From contig NZ_CP040602.1 in NCBI RefSeq assembly GCF_005885815.1, positions 883,630 to 947,629 on the forward strand: DNA of 64,000 nt. The letters are read 5' to 3'. Below, one piece after another: positions 4,997 to 16,188 of this stretch. A program made the position numbers and the translations under genes. Positions within the stretch are counted from its first letter, which is position 1; each line of letters opens with the position of its first letter. A model generated the notes under the pieces. That model was not told the origin of the DNA, did no database searches, and was given only the letters and a program-made list of their open reading frames with translations. Source of the stretch: Thiomicrorhabdus sediminis (GTDB taxonomy: Bacteria > Pseudomonadota > Gammaproteobacteria > Thiomicrospirales > Thiomicrospiraceae).

Positions 4997-5087
4997 GGTG
5001 GACTGGCTGAGTGGTTGAAGGCGGCGGTCTTGAAAACCGTTGTAGGTTTGTAGCCTACCTGGGGTTCGAATCCCTAGTCCACCGCCA
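4997..5087 (+). tRNA. tRNA-Ser (anticodon UGA)
   Basis: The acceptor stem pairs GGTGGAC with GTCCACC, followed by G73 and an encoded CCA. The anticodon loop CTTGAAA gives TGA at 5031-5033. A long variable arm and GGTTCGAATCC T-arm are visible, as expected for class II tRNA-Ser, which reads UCA and related codons. Confidence 0.97.
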
Positions 5088-5276: not shown

Positions 5277-6071
5277 ATGCATATATCAAAATCAGCCCTA
5301 ATCGGCTTCCTGTTGGGCATATCTCTTTTTACTTCTGCAATTATTTTAAATACTAATAATTTTTTTATGTTCTTCAGTTTGTCTAGCCTTCTGATTGTTT
5401 TGGGAGGGACCCTTGCATCAGCGATGATGTCCTATGAAGGGCGAAATGTATTATTGGCATTGAAAGAATTAGGTTATACGCTAATCGCATCAAAGGTAAA
5501 TCCTAATACTTTATATAAGGATGTTGGAACCTTGATCGATTGGTCAAAAATTGCCAGGCAAGAAGGAATTGTAAGGCTCGAGAACACTATTATGATTCCA
5601 GAGCATGAATTGAATTTTCTGAAACAGTCATACCTTTACTTGGTCAATGGCTACTCGGGGGATAAGTTGAAGAATCTAATGTTGCATCAGCAACAATACA
5701 TTTATGAACGAAATCTTGTCCAAGCGAAAGTGTTGCTTACCATGGCTTCTTCGGCACCAGCTTTTGGAATGGTAGGTACTTTGGTTGGGTTGATTATTAT
5801 GCTCAATAGCATGGAAGGCGATTATTCTCAGATGGGTACTGGGTTAGCGGTAGCTTTGCTTACAACCTTGTACGGCGTTTTATTGGCCCAATTACTGTTT
5901 AAGCCTGCGGCAAGGAAAGTTGAGCAAAAACAAGATTTGGAATTTTATCGAAATCAGATTCTTATCGAAGGTCTTACGCTTTTATCGGAAGGAGCGTCCC
6001 CTCTTATTATTGAAGATGCGATGAATGCATATATCGAACCGAGATACCAATTTAATAGAACAGAACGATGA
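5277..6071 (+). CDS. motA: MotA/PomA-type flagellar stator subunit
   Basis: A 264-residue inner-membrane protein with four predicted membrane spans (about residues 7-25, 30-50, 155-177 and 187-208) and a large cytoplasmic loop between spans 2 and 3. Span 3 carries APAFGMVGTLVGLIIML, and span 4 MGTGLAVALLTTLYGVLLAQ, the signature of MotA/PomA, which forms the ion channel of the flagellar stator with MotB/PomB. The loop contains the expected charged helix. The length is close to PomA (~255), and the short first loop suits the PomA/MotA2 group more than E. coli MotA. The next gene starts within its stop codon. No other flagellar gene is nearby, so this is a detached stator locus. Ion specificity (H+ or Na+) cannot be decided by eye. 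Confidence 0.88.
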   Translation: MHISKSALIGFLLGISLFTSAIILNTNNFFMFFSLSSLLIVLGGTLASAMMSYEGRNVLLALKELGYTLIASKVNPNTLYKDVGTLIDWSKIARQEGIVRLENTIMIPEHELNFLKQSYLYLVNGYSGDKLKNLMLHQQQYIYERNLVQAKVLLTMASSAPAFGMVGTLVGLIIMLNSMEGDYSQMGTGLAVALLTTLYGVLLAQLLFKPAARKVEQKQDLEFYRNQILIEGLTLLSEGASPLIIEDAMNAYIEPRYQFNRTER

Positions 6072-6838
6072 GACATAAAAGTACAGTCACATTTCAAAAC
6101 AAACAGGCAGAAGAGACAAAAAACCAAGGTTTTTTTCAGCCTGTTTCTCCTGTAAAAAAGAAAAAATTAACTGAAGAAAATGACGACTGGCTTATTACTT
6201 ACTCCGATGCAGTGACATTATTGTTGGCTTTTTTTGTATTAATCCTGTCAGTTTCTGAAATTAGCCAAGAAAAATTCGAATATATCACCCAAGGAATTAA
6301 TAAAGAACTATTGGAGAGGGAAAATTATAAATCGCCATTAAATGACCTTCATGAAAGTCTTTTTTTTGTTTTCAGCAGTAATAATATTAATCCTGATGAG
6401 GCTTTAACTAAGGGTGATAACTTCCTTAAAATCGAATTACCAAGTGAATTACTCTTTTCAAGTGCATCAAGTGAACTAAGTGAAAAATCAAAAACGCTGC
6501 TATCCAATATAGCTGATCGAATAAAGTTATTTCCTCTGGATAACTTTCGCGTCGAAATAGAAGGCCATTCAGATGATGAACCCATTCACACGACTCGATT
6601 TCCATCTAATTGGGAATTGTCTTCGAGTCGTGCTATTTCCGTACTGAAAGTCTTTATTCTCCGAGGTGTAGACAATAATAAACTTAAGGCTGTTGGTTAT
6701 GCGGATACAAGACCAAAGGTTCCTAACAGAGATGTAAATGAGAACCCTATACTTGAAAATCAGAAAATTAACCGAAGAGTTGAGATTATGATAGTTAAAG
6801 AGTTTAACCAGAAAGGGGATATGAACTTCTATTTATGA
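6068..6838 (+). CDS. motB: MotB/PomB-type stator subunit with OmpA-like domain
   Basis: A 256-residue partner of the preceding channel protein, with an ATGA overlap. A basic, polar N-terminus (residues 1-40) leads into one span beginning WLITYSDAVTLLLAFFVLIL. Asp47 in it corresponds to the ion-binding aspartate (Asp32 of E. coli MotB). An amphipathic plug and linker follow, then an OmpA-like peptidoglycan-binding domain (about 120-245) with EGHSDD, NWELSSSRA and NRRVEIMI. It should anchor the stator to the cell wall when the motor assembles. Pairing with MotA upstream and its isolation from flagellar operons suggest an extra or swappable stator set. The c-di-GMP genes downstream fit motility control. 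Confidence 0.9.
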   Translation: MRHKSTVTFQNKQAEETKNQGFFQPVSPVKKKKLTEENDDWLITYSDAVTLLLAFFVLILSVSEISQEKFEYITQGINKELLERENYKSPLNDLHESLFFVFSSNNINPDEALTKGDNFLKIELPSELLFSSASSELSEKSKTLLSNIADRIKLFPLDNFRVEIEGHSDDEPIHTTRFPSNWELSSSRAISVLKVFILRGVDNNKLKAVGYADTRPKVPNRDVNENPILENQKINRRVEIMIVKEFNQKGDMNFYL

Positions 6839-7040: not shown

Positions 7041-8618
7041 TTATTCTGCGATCACTATCTGATTGCGGCCGTTATGTTTTGCCTGGTAAAGTGCTTTATC
7101 CGCTTTTTCGCAGAACTCTTCTATGCTACCGTGTGCGGCGGCAATACCTATACTGGCCGTAATATTGAATTGATTATCGGAGTTTGGGGATTCGATTACG
7201 GCATGACGAATATCTTCTAAAATGCGTTTTGCGATTTTCTCGGCACTTTTAATATCGGCATCAATCAATAACATGGCAAATTCCTCACCGCCGATACGGG
7301 CAACAATATCCTGTTGGCGGCGATGTGAGGAAAGCATATTGGCGAATTTAATCAGGGCGGCGTCACCGGCGGAATGGCCATAACGATCATTTATCTGTTT
7401 GAAATTGTCAATATCGAACATTAAAAAGCTGCTGTGGGATTGTTCCCTGTTTGCCTGACTGAGTACCGTTTTAGCCTGTTCAAGAAAACCGCGACGATTT
7501 CTGACTTGGGTGAGTTGGTCAATCAAAGCCTGTTGAGCCAATAGTTGATTACTTTTGTGAAGTTGTTGGGATAGTTTGCGGAACTTAAAAATAATCAGTG
7601 CGGCGATGAGCAACAGCAGAGCGCTGCCCAGTGCGATATTTATTGCCAAGGTGTAGTTCGGTTTGAAGTCCGCCTCAAAAAGAAAACCTTTCAGGCCGGC
7701 ATCTGCCTGAGTCATATTCAATTGTTGGTAACTGTTGGCGATAAACTGCCATCGACCAGGATTCATATGGCCTACCTGAACCAGTTCGGGCATAATCAGT
7801 TTTTTCAGCGTTTGCGCCTCAAAGCGCAGGTGGTCAAGCGTTTTCTGCGGTGCATATTGATTATGGATGAGTTGCACCGTCTCTTCTATATTATCCAGTG
7901 CGTATTCCCATCCTTTTAAGGTGGCGGCTTTGAAATGTTCCACCAATTCGGGCTGGTTTTTGGCAAAGGTTTGGCTGGTAATGAGTACGTCGCTATAAAA
8001 GTTGATGCCGTATTCACGCGGATTGATAAGGTTGTATTCAATGCCTCGCTGTTTTAGGTAATAGGGTTCGTTGGAGATATAGCCGTCATAGGCGTCCGCT
8101 TTGTTGTCGATTAGGTCTTCAATTCGGTAGCTGGTATTGCGAATATCAAGCTGGTCGATATCAATCCCTTCATGCTTGAGCATAGTGAGTAGTTCAGCGC
8201 TCTCAGGGGGCGGCATAATCAATAGACGTTTATTTGCCAAATCAATCGGGCTACGGATATTGGACGATTTGAGCGATATCCAGACGATTGGCGAGGTTTG
8301 CATAATTGCGGCGACCGCCACCACCGGTTTACCTTCCATGCGGTCAATCACCACTCCTGAACCGGTAATGGCGAAATCCACCTTACCTTCAAGGACATCG
8401 TCAATCGGTTTTAGCGAGTTCGGACCGCCTTCAATCAGTTCGACATCCAATGCATAATTAGCGTAATAGCCTTTTTCTAAAGCCATGTAGTAACCGGCGA
8501 ATTGAAACTGGTGTAGCCAGCGTAGTTGTACCTTGATGGATTCTGCCGCTTGTGTGTTTGGTAAGAAAAATGCAGTGGCAATAATCATTAAAACAAAACG
8601 TCGAACGGAACTAGGCAT
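7041..8618 (-). CDS. NMT1/THI5-like periplasmic sensor fused to GGDEF diguanylate cyclase
   Basis: A 525-residue membrane sensor. A signal peptide (about 1-24) precedes an NMT1/THI5-like solute-binding domain (25-310) that opens with the family's QLRWLHQFQFAGYYMALEKG. One span (324-344), a short coiled coil and a GGDEF domain (365-522) with GGEEF at 443-447 follow. The active-site glycines and acids are intact, so c-di-GMP synthesis from two GTP is expected. No clear RxxD inhibitory site precedes the signature. The binding domain probably reads a small periplasmic ligand; pyrimidine, sulfonate or similar compounds are bound by relatives, and this ligand is unknown. It is divergent from a second locus that keeps the same kind of binding protein as a separate lipoprotein. 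Confidence 0.9.
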   Translation of the reverse strand: MPSSVRRFVLMIIATAFFLPNTQAAESIKVQLRWLHQFQFAGYYMALEKGYYANYALDVELIEGGPNSLKPIDDVLEGKVDFAITGSGVVIDRMEGKPVVAVAAIMQTSPIVWISLKSSNIRSPIDLANKRLLIMPPPESAELLTMLKHEGIDIDQLDIRNTSYRIEDLIDNKADAYDGYISNEPYYLKQRGIEYNLINPREYGINFYSDVLITSQTFAKNQPELVEHFKAATLKGWEYALDNIEETVQLIHNQYAPQKTLDHLRFEAQTLKKLIMPELVQVGHMNPGRWQFIANSYQQLNMTQADAGLKGFLFEADFKPNYTLAINIALGSALLLLIAALIIFKFRKLSQQLHKSNQLLAQQALIDQLTQVRNRRGFLEQAKTVLSQANREQSHSSFLMFDIDNFKQINDRYGHSAGDAALIKFANMLSSHRRQQDIVARIGGEEFAMLLIDADIKSAEKIAKRILEDIRHAVIESPNSDNQFNITASIGIAAAHGSIEEFCEKADKALYQAKHNGRNQIVIAE

Positions 8619-8647
8619 ATTAGGTCTTTGAAATTTGCATCATGTAT

Positions 8648-8700
8648 ACTCAGTCATTTAACCATAACTATTGGAAATAGTCAGTATATATGGACTGAGT
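8648..8700. promoter_or_regulatory. inverted repeat in the divergent sensor promoter region
   Basis: ACTCAGTC (8648-8655) and GACTGAGT (8693-8700) form a perfect 8-bp inverted repeat. TGGACTGAG at 8691-8699 recurs as a direct repeat at 8837-8845, just upstream of the solute-binding lipoprotein. These three half-sites lie between the two divergent c-di-GMP loci and could be a shared operator. No regulator gene is adjacent. Confidence 0.35.
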
Positions 8701-8881
8701 TTAACTTAGAGGGCTATTACGTATCAATAATGGATGCAAACTCGAATGGGGTGACGATGCTCTCCTGAATTTTGAAACTTACCTTATTGACTTATCTAGT
8801 AATTTTTTATGTTATTCTCTTTCTAAAAGAGTATTTTGGACTGAGATTTTATTTCTATTGGCTGGCTTAAAGGTGGTGGAT

Positions 8882-9763
8882 GTGTTTAAAAAACTGGCAA
8901 TATTTTTATCATTATTGTTCTCGCTTACGGGGTGTTCGCAGAATGAATACAGTCAATTAAAAATTTCAGCAACCACTTGGGTCGGCTATTCGCCACTTTT
9001 TTATGCGAAAGAGAAAGGCTGGTTGGACGATTTGAATATCAAATTACTCCATGTTGTTTCCCTTAGTGAAAATATGTATTTATTTGAGGCTGGCAATGCT
9101 GATGCTTATGTGGGCACTCAGTATGAGTACAGTCTGTTGATTGAAAAAGATCCTTCACTAATGCCTGTTATGTTGTTTGACCGTTCTTATGGCGGAGATA
9201 TCATTTTGAGTAATGTCTCGTTGGCGGAATTGCAAAACACGTCAGAAACCATTGATGCTTATTTGGAGATGGATTCAATTAATAGCACTTTATTGAAGGA
9301 TTTCATTCCTCACTATGGGCTTGAAGGTAAAAAAATCCAGTATATCAACCGGGATCAAGCCACCTTGTCGTCTTTAAAGGCCGGGGAGTTATCACGCCCG
9401 AGTTTATTGGTGACCTATACGCCCTATGACATCCAGCTGGAAAAACAGGGATTTGCAGAGGTCGCTTCCACTAAAGATGGCTTGAATCTTTTGGTGGTGG
9501 ATGCGTTGTTTACACGTGAATCTTCTCTGAATAAACACCGTAAACAATTTGAAGAGCTAAAAAAGTTGGTTAACAAGGCCACAGAAGCGCTCAAACAAAA
9601 TCCACAAGAATTCTATACAACAATCAAGCCTTATATGCTAGAACTCAGTTATGAGGAGTTTGTGCAATCCCTTGATAGTATTGTTTGGATCAACAGTGGC
9701 ATAAGTCCTGAACTTGAAGAACGTATTCAGGAACTAGGCTTTCCAATTAGAGGGTTGATTTAA
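8882..9763 (+). CDS. solute-binding lipoprotein (NMT1/SsuA-like)
   Basis: A 293-residue periplasmic binding protein of the ABC-transporter type II fold. The start chosen is GTG 8882, with AGGTGG five bases upstream, which gives a short lipoprotein signal ending in lipobox LTGC (Cys18). A TTG at 8858 would add eight residues. The mature protein opens with KISATTWVGYSPLFYAKEKG, the usual first strand and helix of SsuA/NMT1-like proteins. Its stop is followed immediately by the GTG of a GGDEF-EAL gene, and no permease or ATPase gene is present. It therefore probably works as a ligand-sensing partner of that membrane protein and not in transport. The arrangement parallels Vibrio NspS-MbaA. The ligand is unknown. 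Confidence 0.8.
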   Translation: MFKKLAIFLSLLFSLTGCSQNEYSQLKISATTWVGYSPLFYAKEKGWLDDLNIKLLHVVSLSENMYLFEAGNADAYVGTQYEYSLLIEKDPSLMPVMLFDRSYGGDIILSNVSLAELQNTSETIDAYLEMDSINSTLLKDFIPHYGLEGKKIQYINRDQATLSSLKAGELSRPSLLVTYTPYDIQLEKQGFAEVASTKDGLNLLVVDALFTRESSLNKHRKQFEELKKLVNKATEALKQNPQEFYTTIKPYMLELSYEEFVQSLDSIVWINSGISPELEERIQELGFPIRGLI

Positions 9764-11770
9764 GTGCGCTTGAGCATCAAACATTTCATGATAATCAACT
9801 TATTGACCATATTGGTCATCCTCTATGCAATTTTCGCAGATTATTATCAAGAGCAGAAAAGCCATACCGCTGAGGTTATTCTGGGCAGTTTAAAAGATGA
9901 TATGTCGGAAATCAGTTATTTGCTGTCTAAGCAGATAGTAGACAAGAAAATGGTTCGAACCACTCGTTCTTTGCTGGATAGGGCAGTGTCAAACAATGAC
10001 TTTATTAAGGCGATTATGATTCTAGATGACCAGAAGGTTTTACTGACGACTGACCCAAGATACCGAAAAGTTCCAGATAAAAAAAATGTATTTCTTGATC
10101 CAGATTTGAGCGCAGAAAATATATTGCTGGACCATGTCGGGTTTGAGGGGACTATTAGATTTTATAAAGGAAAAGATCTACAGAAACTAACGCTGGTATT
10201 TTTATTTGATCATCAAGAGGCGGCGGCTTTCTTAAATCAAAACAGTTTAAAATTTTTGCTGTATTTTGGCTTGTTGCCCGGTTTGATTATCCTTGTGATG
10301 TGGTTATTGATGATTCGCTACATTATCAAACCGTTGGAACGTTTACGTCAATATGCCTATTACCAGAGTGAAACACCAAGTGTTTTCAATCTCAAAGAGC
10401 TTGAATATATTCGCAGCTCAATGGCTCAGACTTTTTCACGTTTAGATAGTGAACAAAAAGAACTTTTTAACTTAGCTAGAACTGATTCTTTGAGTGGGTT
10501 GGCAAATCGTCATGCTTTAAATGAGAATCTAAAATGTTTGATTGCTGATGCTGCTCGAAAAAATTATGAATTTGCGTATTTGTTTTTGGATTTAGACAAC
10601 TTTAAAGCGGTGAATGATGCTCTTGGTCATAATGTTGGTGATGAGTTATTGCAACAGGTCGCAGGAGTAATCTCAGAGGTGCTTCGAACCAATGATTTTG
10701 TGGCTCGTGTTGGTGGCGATGAGTTTGTCATAGTTTTGCATGACTACGAGTCTTTAAGCGAGATTTCAAATATATTGGAAAGAATTCAAAGTCGTTTAAA
10801 TGTTCCGTGGATCATTCAGGGACACCCAATAAAGATTACCAGTAGTATCGGTATAGCGCTTTATCCAAAGGACGCTCAAGATATGATTGGGTTAATGAAA
10901 TCTTCAGATATTGCTATGTATGAAGCCAAGAAGCGAGGCCGCAATCAGCATTATTTTTATACTGAAGAGTTAAATGTTACGGTGCAAAAAAATATAGCAC
11001 TGGATAAAGCAATGCGGCAAGCTCTGGAAGACCATGAATATCATTTGTATTACCAACCTAAAGTGAATCTGCTGAATGGAGATATCATCGGCCTAGAAGC
11101 GCTGATCAGATGGTTTAGTCCTACTAAAGGAATGATAATGCCTGATCAATTCATTCCTTTGGCGGAGGAAAATGGTTTTATTTTAGAGTTGGGAAAATGG
11201 GTGTTACAAGAAGCTTTTCGTCAACAGAAAATATGGCAGCAACAAGGAATGGATCTGCATGTGTCAGTCAATGTAGCCACAAAGCAACTTTTGGATAATC
11301 AATTCGAGTCTTTATTAGAACATCTTGTTAAAGAAACAGGTGTTGATCCAAATAAGATTCACTTGGAAATCACTGAATATTTATTTATGGACCAAAACGA
11401 CAAAAACCTAAATCTAATGAAGCGCTTGCGTAGTAAAGGCTTTTCAATCTCTCTGGATGATTTTGGTACGGGTTATTCCTCCTTGTCTTATTTGAAGACA
11501 TTTCCTATTAGTGAACTCAAAATAGATAAAGCTTTTGTTCGGGACTATAATACGCCAGATGGCGCTGTTTTCTTAGAGACCATTGTAAAGATGGGACAGA
11601 CTCTGAAATTGCAAGTGATTGCAGAAGGGGTGGAGACTGAAGCGCAGGCAAGGTATCTTAAAAAGATTGGTTGTGAATGTTATCAAGGATATTTATGCTC
11701 TAAACCTTTACCAGTAAAAGAACTAGATACTTTTTACCTTAAGCATAAGTCTTGTATGTTAGAAGATTAA
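9764..11770 (+). CDS. membrane GGDEF-EAL c-di-GMP enzyme
   Basis: A 668-residue protein with spans at about 8-25 and 163-185, enclosing a ~135-residue periplasmic sensor of no recognised family. The GGDEF domain (~235-400) has an intact GGDEF at 317-321. The EAL domain (~410-655) has EAL at 445-447, an intact DDFGTGYSSLSYL loop and the later EGVETEAQ. Both cyclase and phosphodiesterase sites look competent, so net output probably depends on the sensor. GTG directly abuts the stop of the upstream binding lipoprotein, which implies co-expression and probable physical partnership. It is convergent with the hybrid kinase gene downstream. The ~100-bp gap has no obvious terminator. Confidence 0.92.
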   Translation: MRLSIKHFMIINLLTILVILYAIFADYYQEQKSHTAEVILGSLKDDMSEISYLLSKQIVDKKMVRTTRSLLDRAVSNNDFIKAIMILDDQKVLLTTDPRYRKVPDKKNVFLDPDLSAENILLDHVGFEGTIRFYKGKDLQKLTLVFLFDHQEAAAFLNQNSLKFLLYFGLLPGLIILVMWLLMIRYIIKPLERLRQYAYYQSETPSVFNLKELEYIRSSMAQTFSRLDSEQKELFNLARTDSLSGLANRHALNENLKCLIADAARKNYEFAYLFLDLDNFKAVNDALGHNVGDELLQQVAGVISEVLRTNDFVARVGGDEFVIVLHDYESLSEISNILERIQSRLNVPWIIQGHPIKITSSIGIALYPKDAQDMIGLMKSSDIAMYEAKKRGRNQHYFYTEELNVTVQKNIALDKAMRQALEDHEYHLYYQPKVNLLNGDIIGLEALIRWFSPTKGMIMPDQFIPLAEENGFILELGKWVLQEAFRQQKIWQQQGMDLHVSVNVATKQLLDNQFESLLEHLVKETGVDPNKIHLEITEYLFMDQNDKNLNLMKRLRSKGFSISLDDFGTGYSSLSYLKTFPISELKIDKAFVRDYNTPDGAVFLETIVKMGQTLKLQVIAEGVETEAQARYLKKIGCECYQGYLCSKPLPVKELDTFYLKHKSCMLED

Positions 11771-11870: not shown

Positions 11871-14033
11871 TCAAACAATCTTTTTTATCAATTCCGCTAG
11901 AACATCAAAGTCAATGGGTTTGGTGATGTACTCGGAAAACCCTGAAGCTTTGCCTTTAGTAATATCATTAGGCATGGCGTTGGCAGTGACTGCGAAAACA
12001 GTAATATCCTTTGTAATGTCGTCTTTTTTGAGTTGCTTTAGCACCTCATACCCATCCATTCCCGGCAAATTGATATCCAATAAAACAAGATCGGGTTTGT
12101 GTGTTAAAGCCAGCTGAATGCCTAGTTCCGGCCGTTGTGCAGTTAGTAATTGGAGTTTCGTCTCTTTTTCAATAAAAGACTTCATTAAACTGATATTTGA
12201 AGGGTTGTCTTCAATATAGAGAACGGTCTTTTCCAGTCCTATTTTGTAGTCGTTGTGAGCGTTGCTTTGAGTATGTTCGGGTTGATAGTCAAGGGTTTTT
12301 TCAAGAGGTAATTCGATCCAAAAGCAACTGCCTTGATTCAAAGTGCTGGTAACGCCTATTTCGCCGCCCATAATACTGATTAGTTTTTTACTCAGGGATA
12401 GGCCAATTCCTGTTCCTTGTATCGCTAGATTTTCACGACCTAAGCGGTCGAACGGTTTAAATAAAAGCGGAATTTGGTTTTTATCGATTCCCATGCCGTT
12501 ATCTATGACATTGAGGCGTATGTGTTCAGCTTTAATGTCTGCTCTAAAGACAACAGTACCATTGTCATGGTTATACTTAATCGCATTCGAGAGCAGGTTA
12601 ATAAGTACCTGTTTGAGTCGGCTTAAATCGGCTCTGACGTAAACTCCATCCAGGTTGTGACATTCAATTTGAATGTTCTTTTTGCTGGCCAGAGTCTTTA
12701 AGAATGCAATGCTGCTGTCGACGGCAGAGCTTAGTTTGACAGGCTTGATAGAAATACTTAATTTACCGGCATCAATAGCGCTTAAGTCCAAGATGTCATT
12801 TATAATGGTTAAAAGATGTTTGCCGGCGTTATGAATGGTTTGAATATCTTCTTTATGTTGCGGTGAAGTTTCTGGATCACGTTCGAGTAATTGACTAAAT
12901 CCGATAATTGCATTCAAAGGCGTTCTCAGTTCATGAGACATATTGGCAAGAAACTCTGATTTCGAACGACTTGCTTCAAGAGCTTGATCCCGCATTTCGA
13001 CCAGTTCTTTTTCCAATGCTTTTTTGTCAGAGATGTTTTCAATCAGTCCAAAAACCTTGGTCAACTGACCGGCTTCATAAAGAGCAATACCTTCAACTCG
13101 TACCCAAAGCTTGTTTTCTTTAAATGTGATAATTTCAAGCTCTTCGCTAAAGCTTTCGCCCTTGCTAATGGCATTGCGAATCGCAGTATCAATCGTTTTT
13201 GCGTTTTCACCATATTTGAAGAAGCTTATAAATCGATCAGTATCCATTTGCATGTCCTGCGGAGTTTCAAGAATCTGACTGCAGGTATCGTTCCAATTGG
13301 TTTTACTTTGATCTTTTAGGTCGATTTCCCATAAGCCGACATTGATCGAATCAATAACCTCTTTTACTTTAACGGCTTCAGTGGTTAAAAAAGCGAATTT
13401 AGTATGGTATCTGTAGAGAATGGCAACCGCTAAGAAAAAGCTTATTAAGATGACTAGCCGGCTAAACCATAAAAACTGCTGCGCTTCCGAATATTCCTTT
13501 TCGACGGCTAACTTAATTTCTACTAAGCGTTCATTAATTCGGTTTTTGAGAAAGTTAAAGGATTCCAAAGCGAAAGTATCGTCGACCTTAACTAGTTTAT
13601 CGATTTGCTCACTGGTACGGTTTTTATTAATCAAACGTTTGACGGTTTGGTATTGAGAATAATACTCCTCTATGGTCGCGTGAATATTTGATAAGTGGAG
13701 TATGTCAGTGTCGACCTTAAGTTCATATTGAAGCAGTCTCAATGAATTCTCTAGGTTGGTATAGTTCTGTTCAATTTTTGCTCCGTAGGTATCCAGGTCT
13801 TGACGAATCACCAGGTTTTTAAAGTTGTGAATAAAGCCGCCATAGCCCATTGCGCCTTGAATGTCTATCATCAGGCGGTCTAGCTGATTACTGCGTTCGG
13901 CATAACTTAACCAGGATTTTTCAACTTCATTAAATTTTCTTTCGCTTTGAATACTGAAAATTGCAGCAATCAATAACAAGACTATAGCTAATGCCAAAGG
14001 AAGGAATTGATATTGTTTTAGTGAGGGAATCAT
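11871..14033 (-). CDS. membrane hybrid sensor histidine kinase (PAS, HisKA, HATPase, REC)
   Basis: A 720-residue kinase. Spans at about 10-28 and 189-207 enclose a helical periplasmic domain with GYGGFIHNFKN, a motif seen in several bacterial sensor ectodomains. A PAS domain (~222-338), a coiled-coil linker and HisKA with MSHELRTPLNA (phosphorylatable His367) follow. The HATPase domain shows the N box (LINLLSNAIKYN) and GTGIGLSLSKKL. The C-terminal receiver carries Asp653 in LLDINLPGMDGYE and the TKP lysine. It lies 122 bp downstream of an H-NOX gene on the same strand, so it is the likely H-NOX-associated kinase, although those described in Shewanella and Vibrio are soluble. No output regulator is adjacent; phosphate may pass to a distant Hpt protein such as that at 42.1 kb. 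Confidence 0.92.
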   Translation of the reverse strand: MIPSLKQYQFLPLALAIVLLLIAAIFSIQSERKFNEVEKSWLSYAERSNQLDRLMIDIQGAMGYGGFIHNFKNLVIRQDLDTYGAKIEQNYTNLENSLRLLQYELKVDTDILHLSNIHATIEEYYSQYQTVKRLINKNRTSEQIDKLVKVDDTFALESFNFLKNRINERLVEIKLAVEKEYSEAQQFLWFSRLVILISFFLAVAILYRYHTKFAFLTTEAVKVKEVIDSINVGLWEIDLKDQSKTNWNDTCSQILETPQDMQMDTDRFISFFKYGENAKTIDTAIRNAISKGESFSEELEIITFKENKLWVRVEGIALYEAGQLTKVFGLIENISDKKALEKELVEMRDQALEASRSKSEFLANMSHELRTPLNAIIGFSQLLERDPETSPQHKEDIQTIHNAGKHLLTIINDILDLSAIDAGKLSISIKPVKLSSAVDSSIAFLKTLASKKNIQIECHNLDGVYVRADLSRLKQVLINLLSNAIKYNHDNGTVVFRADIKAEHIRLNVIDNGMGIDKNQIPLLFKPFDRLGRENLAIQGTGIGLSLSKKLISIMGGEIGVTSTLNQGSCFWIELPLEKTLDYQPEHTQSNAHNDYKIGLEKTVLYIEDNPSNISLMKSFIEKETKLQLLTAQRPELGIQLALTHKPDLVLLDINLPGMDGYEVLKQLKKDDITKDITVFAVTANAMPNDITKGKASGFSEYITKPIDFDVLAELIKKIV

Positions 14034-14155: not shown

Positions 14156-14713
14156 TTACCGGCGTTTAATGGTAAATTTGGAGAAGGTGTTTTGCGGGTC
14201 ATCGTTAATCGTCATGCTGAGCTCAAGCGGTTCGTCAAAGAAATGGATGCAGCCAGACAGCAAGCCTTTAACAAAGTGATGCAGTTTCATCTCCGAGCTG
14301 TAGATCAGGGTGATTTGGTCGTCTTCACGCTCAATACCAAAACGTGGAAACTGTGCATTCGGATAGATTTTCTTCAACTCGGTAAAATGCATGATATTGA
14401 GTTGTTCGACGAAATCGAACACATTGTCATTAAAGATAGGGCTTTCTTTATCATCATAGATTTCTCTAAACTGCGTCACTAGGCTGGTAAAGGCATAAAA
14501 ACCGTATTTGTACCAGAGTGAGTTCATTTCAATATCGGTCTTTGCAGACAGGTGTTGCAACATTTCTACCAGTACAGCAGGGTTGTAGGTTTCTCCGGCG
14601 CAAAAACCACCGTCATTGGGGAATTCACCTTGTAACAGAATGTAATCCAGTGTTTCGTAACCAAATTCATTTTCAACGAATTCGTTAAAGGTTGTAAAAA
14701 TAACGCCTCTCAA
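14156..14713 (-). CDS. H-NOX haem-based NO sensor protein
   Basis: A 185-residue stand-alone haem-NO-binding (HNOB) domain, the usual length. The start is TTG at 14713, preceded by GAGAG; residues MRGVIFTTF fit the family N-terminus. His109 in NIMHFTELKKIYP matches the proximal haem ligand, and YPNAQFPRF, with its conserved proline, follows. The YxSxR haem-propionate motif is altered: Tyr138 and Ser140 are present, but the Arg position is Met142. Bacterial H-NOX proteins bind NO and control a co-encoded histidine kinase or diguanylate cyclase, often switching between motility and biofilm. Here the next gene on the strand is a hybrid kinase, and two GGDEF genes lie beyond it. Haem binding with the missing arginine is plausible but not certain. 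Confidence 0.87.
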   Translation of the reverse strand: MRGVIFTTFNEFVENEFGYETLDYILLQGEFPNDGGFCAGETYNPAVLVEMLQHLSAKTDIEMNSLWYKYGFYAFTSLVTQFREIYDDKESPIFNDNVFDFVEQLNIMHFTELKKIYPNAQFPRFGIEREDDQITLIYSSEMKLHHFVKGLLSGCIHFFDEPLELSMTINDDPQNTFSKFTIKRR

Positions 14714-14919: not shown

Positions 14920-16188
14920 TTATTTCGCTTTATAGCTATACGGCTGAGGGTTTTGCGCTTTATCGAGTAAAACCTGCAATGCCTTTTGCATACTGATTAT
15001 TTGCTGTTGCAAAATCGACTGCTGTTCTTTCAGAGCCTGCAGTTCTTGGCTGACAGTAGCGGATGATTTTTGTTGCGCTTTACCTAAGCGGCCTTCAATC
15101 GCTTCCAGAGTCTTGCTTTGTTTACGAATCAGCCAGCTGATTCCATTAAGTTTTTTCACCTGTTCCGCAGTCAGTCCCGAACCGGCGATAGTCGCGCTAT
15201 CCGGGTCTACAGTGGTTTGTTTATCGCTACTTTGCATCTGTTGTTGTAGAGCCTGCTGTTGAGCACTGACTTTTTCAACCAGTTCACGAAGTTTGGCCAA
15301 CTCTTGTTTGCTCACCGCATTCTGCATTGCTGTATGGCTATGACGGGCAATCGCCTCATCAATAACCGGTTTTACCGCTTCGGCAATGGCTTGGTTGTCC
15401 AGCGTCTCAGCAACGCTTGGCATCGCTTGAGAAGAGATTATTTCATCAGCCATGGTTTTCTCTTCAACTGCTGTATTTTGCGGTTCGGTTGTTGTTGACG
15501 CCTCTAGCGCTGTCTCGCTGTTTTCGGTGACAGTATCCGTGACACTGGTGATTGTTGTTTCGTTCTTGTCTACCGCTTTTTTTTCAGCCTCCGTCATCTT
15601 TTCAGGGGGTGTTGCGGTTGGCGCCATGGTTACTGTGTTTAGCATGCTCACCTGTTGTCCCAGGGTTTCCACCACCGCGGCAAGTTCATCAATTTTAAGC
15701 GTGATTTTTTTGGTTAAGAGAGTGGTTTCAGTGGTGATGATATCAAGCACCTCGCCTTTAAACTGTGCCTGCTGTTTTTGCATCGCATACATCTGATAGC
15801 TGACTACGCCGATGGCGATCGCACTCATGACAATGGCTGCGCCCATCATGACCGCAAAGCTGGTTTTAGCGGCTTGAAAGTCTTTGGCGGCATTACGGAC
15901 AGATTGGCGCCAATTAAAATTGGATTCATTCAATTCCAGCGCTTGCGCTTTAAGTTGTTCGGCTTGTTTGATTGAGGTCTGCGCAGCCTTATGACTCTGC
16001 TCAGCTGCCGCTTGTGCTGTTTTAGACGCTTCTAAAACAAGCAGGTTGGCATCTGCGCTGGCATTGTCAGAGGTTTTTTGCGCCTGTTTGACTTGTTGAT
16101 TAACTTTTTCCACCGAAGATTCTAGTTCCTGGGTGGACTCTTCAAGTTGTTCAACTTCTTGTAAAAGGTCGTCAACAATTTCACTCAT
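14920..16188 (-). CDS. single-span coiled-coil membrane protein of unknown function
   Basis: A 422-residue protein that I do not recognise. Residues 1-105 are an almost continuous coiled coil rich in Glu, Gln and Ala. One span (about 111-133, FAVMMGAAIVMSAIAIGVVS) is followed by a second helical stretch (~140-190), a low-complexity Thr/Glu/Val region (~195-260), and a Gln/Lys-rich coiled coil (~290-410). There is no signal peptide, so the N-terminus is probably cytoplasmic. Residues 31-80 (QQVKQAQKTSDNASADANLL onward) resemble residues 426-470 of the acidic protein encoded 52 bp upstream on the same strand. This suggests the two interact or arose by segment duplication. Structural or scaffold roles are possible; no enzymatic motif is visible. 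Confidence 0.75.
   Translation of the reverse strand: MSEIVDDLLQEVEQLEESTQELESSVEKVNQQVKQAQKTSDNASADANLLVLEASKTAQAAAEQSHKAAQTSIKQAEQLKAQALELNESNFNWRQSVRNAAKDFQAAKTSFAVMMGAAIVMSAIAIGVVSYQMYAMQKQQAQFKGEVLDIITTETTLLTKKITLKIDELAAVVETLGQQVSMLNTVTMAPTATPPEKMTEAEKKAVDKNETTITSVTDTVTENSETALEASTTTEPQNTAVEEKTMADEIISSQAMPSVAETLDNQAIAEAVKPVIDEAIARHSHTAMQNAVSKQELAKLRELVEKVSAQQQALQQQMQSSDKQTTVDPDSATIAGSGLTAEQVKKLNGISWLIRKQSKTLEAIEGRLGKAQQKSSATVSQELQALKEQQSILQQQIISMQKALQVLLDKAQNPQPYSYKAK

Follow-up and report, generated by a model that had tools for sequence, protein, structure and literature searches.

The window, by which we mean the whole 64,000-nucleotide stretch of DNA that was analysed, is part of the complete 2.37 Mb genome of Thiomicrorhabdus sediminis. 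Three of its genes carry, between them, two NMT1-type solute-binding domains and two GGDEF domains. One gene encodes a fused sensor and the other two, on the opposite strand, form a pair. Their features are as follows.

7041-8618, minus strand: fused sensor gene, encoding a signal peptide, an NMT1 domain, a transmembrane (TM) helix and a GGDEF domain; a neighbour outside the pair (ORF list and Pfam)
7890-8510, 7581-7655 and 7059-7529, minus strand: NMT1 domain, TM helix (residues 326-344) and GGDEF domain of the fused sensor (Pfam, hydropathy)
8882-9763, plus strand: solute-binding lipoprotein of NMT1-like type, 293 aa (ORF called from TTG at 8858, the GTG at 8882 being the likelier start)
8933-8935, plus strand: predicted lipidation Cys in the lipobox LTGC; the +2 residue is Ser and the tether is short (family alignment)
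9764-11770, plus strand: membrane GGDEF-EAL enzyme, 668 aa (ORF list and Pfam)
9764-10312, plus strand: TM1 (residues 7-25), periplasmic domain (about 28-162) and TM2 (164-182) of the enzyme (AlphaFold, hydropathy)
10478-10948, plus strand: intact GGDEF domain of the enzyme, with RVGGDEF and the I-site RTND (Pfam, motifs)
11009-11707, plus strand: EAL domain of the enzyme, with EALIR and every catalytic motif intact (Pfam, motifs)

The ORFs and Pfam agree with the initial annotation on the positions of these genes and on their nature: a fusion, a lipoprotein and an abutting GGDEF-EAL gene. The NMT1/THI5-like domain and the GGDEF domain that it placed in a single chain match Pfam with 182 and 159 bits. 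It had also described the lipoprotein gene as abutting a separate enzyme gene without transporter genes. Indeed, the enzyme's GTG start at 9764 is the next base after the TAA stop of the lipoprotein (9761-9763), with 0 bases between, and the window holds no transporter gene, and no permease, near the pair. The lipoprotein most likely starts at the GTG at 8882 rather than at the TTG at 8858: AAGG lies upstream of this GTG, the signal read from it is MFKKLAIFLSLLFSLTGC, and the signal peptides of relatives are similarly short in the family alignments, in line with this start. Scans for promoters and terminators gave results at chance level, and a search for RNA families between 4000 and 15000 returned nothing besides tRNA, and no riboswitch.

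The lipoprotein matches NMT1 in Pfam (23.3 bits, cut-off 20.5) and falls just short of the cut-off for NMT1_2 (24.2 bits, cut-off 24.7). By sequence, it has no relative in the PDB up to an E-value of 1. Its AlphaFold model (pLDDT 93.7) best matches SsuA (2x26, Z 22.1, rmsd 3.5 over 263 residues), followed by TauA, ThiY and CmpA/NrtA, and the modelled fold is that of a two-lobe type II (NMT1/SsuA-like) binding protein. The protein is also a predicted bacterial lipoprotein, with a signal peptide, a lipobox and a lipidation Cys that is invariant in the family (46/46 members).

The enzyme matches GGDEF with 164 bits and EAL with 239 bits, and it carries, judging from its sequence, intact motifs for the synthesis of c-di-GMP, for its inhibition and for its hydrolysis. 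In the family, 39/39 partner enzymes have kept the catalytic motifs of both GGDEF and EAL intact, and most of them also retain the RxxD I-site. In the AlphaFold model of the N-terminal part (pLDDT 90.1), a long helix forms TM1, a PAS/Cache-like sheet follows, and TM2 extends as a signalling helix. Foldseek alone gave weak E-values for this model; PDB matches to the periplasmic domain include WalK (Z 10.7, rmsd 2.9 over 120), CdgS9, which is an orthologue of LapD (Z 8.4), and LuxQ (3c30, Z 8.2). The model thus points to a PAS/Cache-like receptor domain of the WalK, LuxQ and LapD class. This periplasmic part has about 135 residues, with no HAMP match in Pfam, the model or hydropathy.

A genome search for the pair, proposed in the initial annotation, revealed that it is conserved. 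We counted as relatives the distinct loci with a lipoprotein of at least 33% identity and with downstream sequence (n = 69); two further loci above this threshold, L088 and L097, lie at the end of a contig. In 67 of the 69 relatives, the lipoprotein gene is directly adjoined by one for a c-di-GMP enzyme, mostly with gaps of 0, 1 or -4 nt. The genome of T. sediminis encodes about 63 GGDEF domains in 2.37 Mb, which gives a chance adjacency of about 3% per locus, so the observed frequency is beyond chance. At L109, an EAL-coding stretch downstream of the lipoprotein gene is masked by a false minus-strand ORF, and this lipoprotein probably also abuts a c-di-GMP enzyme. At L233 (1/69), the neighbour is a hybrid histidine kinase, not a c-di-GMP enzyme. 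Among close relatives, each lipoprotein homologue with more than 40% identity sits before a GGDEF-EAL gene, and a scan of the genome collection added Hydrogenovibrio, Sulfurimonas, Sulfuricurvum and Arcobacter, with the adjacency kept. Of the 11 loci below 33% identity, eight abut a c-di-GMP enzyme, two a kinase, and one, in Acidobacteria, an ABC permease and an ATPase. At L065, L067 and L245, distant relatives of the lipoprotein abut receptors bearing a Phosphonate-bd domain, and there two binding proteins may feed one receptor.

NMT1-class proteins are usually components of importers, and the lipoprotein could be an ordinary binding protein that serves an ABC importer whose genes lie elsewhere, and stand before the enzyme by coincidence. 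Its genome has 12 matches to BPD_transp_1 permeases, not all of them assigned, and the distant relative abutting a permease and an ATPase (L110, 26% identity, Acidobacteria) has the layout expected of an importer. Yet a signalling enzyme lies downstream in 69/69 relatives of at least 33% identity (L109 being a probable case), and none of these relatives has an ABC importer of its own beside the lipoprotein. Permeases do occur at four Sulfurimonas-type loci, but at the three of these loci checked by Pfam (3/3) the binding protein beside them is a PBP_like_2 protein, and these permeases appear to belong to another importer. We thus regard the importer reading as very unlikely.

The flanks of the pair vary between loci, which suggests that it moves as a unit. 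Maximum-likelihood trees of the lipoproteins and of the enzymes show the same two main clades. One is restricted to this genus and family; the other mixes Gammaproteobacteria and Campylobacterota and includes the pair of the window. The genome of T. sediminis and two others have one pair from each clade. The distances between lipoproteins track those between periplasmic domains once the effect of GGDEF and EAL is removed (partial r 0.57, reached by 0 of 1,000 permutations), although the shared ancestry of the sequences makes this statistic weak and supportive only. In the class around a Sulfurimonas genome, 21 of 249 genomes contain the pair; in 369 genomes across the window's own class, T. 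sediminis itself gave the only strong matches. In summary, these comparisons identify the lipoprotein and the GGDEF-EAL enzyme as a conserved two-gene system, inherited as a unit, in sulfur- and hydrogen-oxidising bacteria of two phyla. The adjacency of the genes shows that they are functionally linked, which is distinct from physical docking of their products.

In our view, 8882-9763 and 9764-11770 probably encode the two subunits of a single split receptor, lipoprotein and GGDEF-EAL enzyme, in which docking of the ligand-closed lipoprotein shifts the c-di-GMP balance. The binding protein would then serve sensing, not transport. A ligand outside the cell would close the lipoprotein, which would dock on the PAS/Cache-like periplasmic domain of the enzyme, and docking would act through TM2 and the signalling helix to shift how much c-di-GMP the enzyme makes relative to what it breaks down. 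The output would probably be the choice between motile and sessile life. Three loci carry motA, motB, fliP, the lipoprotein gene and the GGDEF/EAL gene in a single run (L089:2698-7858, L246:4288-9448 and L247:4587-9759), and motA-motB genes lie in the window at 5277-6838, suggesting a link between the pair and flagellar motility.

The division of labour within such a receptor could be different. PAS/Cache domains often bind small molecules directly, and the fold of the enzyme's periplasmic part matches ligand-binding receptors, so the enzyme could sense the ligand by itself, with the lipoprotein merely concentrating or delivering it. A conserved pocket in the enzyme would predict a receptor domain better kept than the binding protein, and the reverse is observed: mean identity is 50% for the binding protein and 28% for the periplasmic domain, the least conserved part of the system. 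This pattern fits ligand recognition in the lipoprotein, and makes recognition by the enzyme unlikely. The anchor is harder to reconcile with the split receptor. The +2 residue is Ser in 35 of 46 family members and Asp in none (0/46), and by the Lol rule of E. coli, which may not hold in these bacteria, it would send the lipoprotein to the outer membrane. In 38 of 46 members, 15 residues separate the Cys from a conserved Trp, and an outer-membrane lipoprotein on so short a tether would be out of reach of an inner-membrane partner, which counts against docking.

Another reading concerns the fused neighbour. The initial annotation took the fused and split proteins as variants of a single sensor that respond to the same ligand, with opposing or layered control of c-di-GMP. 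In favour of this reading, both binding domains are of the NMT1 class in Pfam, their genes are divergently placed, and by its motifs one protein is a cyclase only (GGEEF motif, I-site RQQD) and the other a cyclase plus phosphodiesterase, from which opposing control by the fusion and the pair is possible. The statement that the binding domains are of the same kind holds only at the level of the superfamily. Below that level it does not: the two domains have no pairwise similarity (BLASTP E > 5), and the fused one matches ThiY (PDB 3ix1, E 2.4e-23), unlike the lipoprotein. The homology to ThiY is distant and does not by itself define which ligand the fused domain would bind. The layout is not conserved, and the region is part of a variable segment next to tRNA-Ser. 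In another genome, an orthologue of the fusion with 73% identity is located some 19 kb past serS, beside a second GGDEF gene and with no lipoprotein/GGDEF-EAL pair next to it. Of about 80 family loci, L238 in Campylobacterota is the only other with an NMT1-GGDEF fusion near the pair, at a distance of one gene; by a rough estimate, about 0.3 chance neighbours are expected over the loci examined, and L238 is thus within chance. The lack of similarity between the binding domains and the lack of conservation of the layout indicate that the side-by-side arrangement is local and not the product of one duplicated sensor. A single sensor in two versions is therefore highly improbable, and the fusion is best explained, on its sequence, as a diguanylate-cyclase sensor in its own right, whose binding domain resembles ThiY.

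Genomes of this genus often carry ThiY-like domains in long open frames, up to nine each, and those examined in the genome of T. sediminis are fused to GGDEF or PAS domains. In the literature collection searched, no paper joined NMT1 with GGDEF, or ThiY with formylaminopyrimidine. The genome of T. sediminis also has a tandem of three large GGDEF proteins (L060:3341-12103), two of them with NMT1 and SBP_bac_3 in one chain, and an NMT1-PAS protein of 603 aa adjoining a GGDEF-EAL protein of the LapD/MoxY type (L059:5105-8853). At L061:6023-7021, an NMT1 binding protein adjoins genes for a fatty-acid desaturase, a metallo-beta-lactamase-fold protein and a TIM-barrel protein, with no permease among the genes checked.

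The variable segment extends from tRNA-Ser(TGA), at 4997-5087, to 14920, and differs between relatives: in one, the orthologue of the gene at 14920 directly follows the tRNA; in another, a restriction-type methylase takes the place of the segment. Most of its genes have lower GC than the flanks. We checked for integration at tRNA-Ser, and no repeat of the 3' end of the tRNA was found elsewhere in the window; the comparison establishes a variable segment, not an integration event. Beside the c-di-GMP genes, a gene for a haem-NO-binding protein (H-NOX/HNOB; 14156-14713, minus strand) immediately precedes one for a hybrid histidine kinase (11871-14033, minus strand), and the two are, by their domains, a pair of the NO-sensing type.

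The closest functional parallel of the lipoprotein/GGDEF-EAL pair, already pointed out in the initial annotation with the remark that the binding family differs, is NspS-MbaA. In this system of Vibrio cholerae and Sinorhizobium meliloti, a binding protein controls a GGDEF-EAL enzyme and signals without transport (PMC8967002, PMC9993111). The gene adjacency was found here too, with the binding-protein gene directly upstream of, or overlapping, the gene of an inner-membrane GGDEF-EAL enzyme that has its periplasmic domain between two TM helices. The binding protein, however, is not of the PotD/PotF type: NspS is a PotD-like polyamine protein, whereas the lipoprotein matches only NMT1/NMT1_2 in Pfam, has a fold nearest to SsuA, TauA and ThiY, and carries a lipid-anchor signal. 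The enzyme differs as well. MbaA of S. meliloti, which we compared by its published description, has a HAMP domain and a periplasmic part of about 232 residues (PMC9993111), in contrast to the shorter PAS/Cache-like domain without HAMP found here, and MbaA of V. cholerae carries SGDEF (PMC8967002) where the GGDEF of the present enzyme is canonical. By analogy, the pair would work like NspS-MbaA, yet it lacks two defining features of that system, namely a binding protein of the PotD type and a large periplasmic part accompanied by HAMP.

Other systems share single traits with the pair. In LuxP-LuxQ, a binding protein gates a receptor with periplasmic PAS folds, in line with the presence of LuxQ among the structural matches; LuxQ is a hybrid kinase and the output here is GGDEF-EAL, though the relative at L233 does pair with a hybrid kinase. 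In YfiBNR, a c-di-GMP enzyme of the membrane is under the control of periplasmic partners, among them a lipoprotein. There, YfiB resembles OmpA, direct regulation falls to YfiR, and YfiN lacks an EAL domain; here, the lipoprotein is of the binding-protein type and the enzyme has an EAL domain. The fused neighbour, for its part, differs from ThiY and other NMT1/THI5 binding proteins in that its domain is tied to a TM helix and a GGDEF domain, not to an importer.

A broader scenario, which we hold as tentative and somewhat short of an even chance, is that a lipid-anchored NMT1-like family left transport and became a portable sensor subunit for GGDEF-EAL, GGDEF, EAL with degenerate GGDEF, and hybrid kinase outputs. 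It would have spread between sulfur- and hydrogen-oxidising Gammaproteobacteria and Campylobacterota, with one conserved ligand setting flagellar motility via c-di-GMP. According to a review (PMC8846402), domains of the PBP clan are widespread among c-di-GMP proteins, yet SBP_bac_3 was the one family that had been studied. The c-di-GMP enzymes gated by a binding protein are best known from one system, NspS-MbaA. If the split-receptor interpretation is true, the same task would be performed by a second binding family unrelated to the first, lipid-anchored and with interchangeable outputs, and this receptor design would have arisen more than once. The pair would also provide a defined two-gene test case in chemolithoautotrophs, whose cues for settling and swimming are little known.
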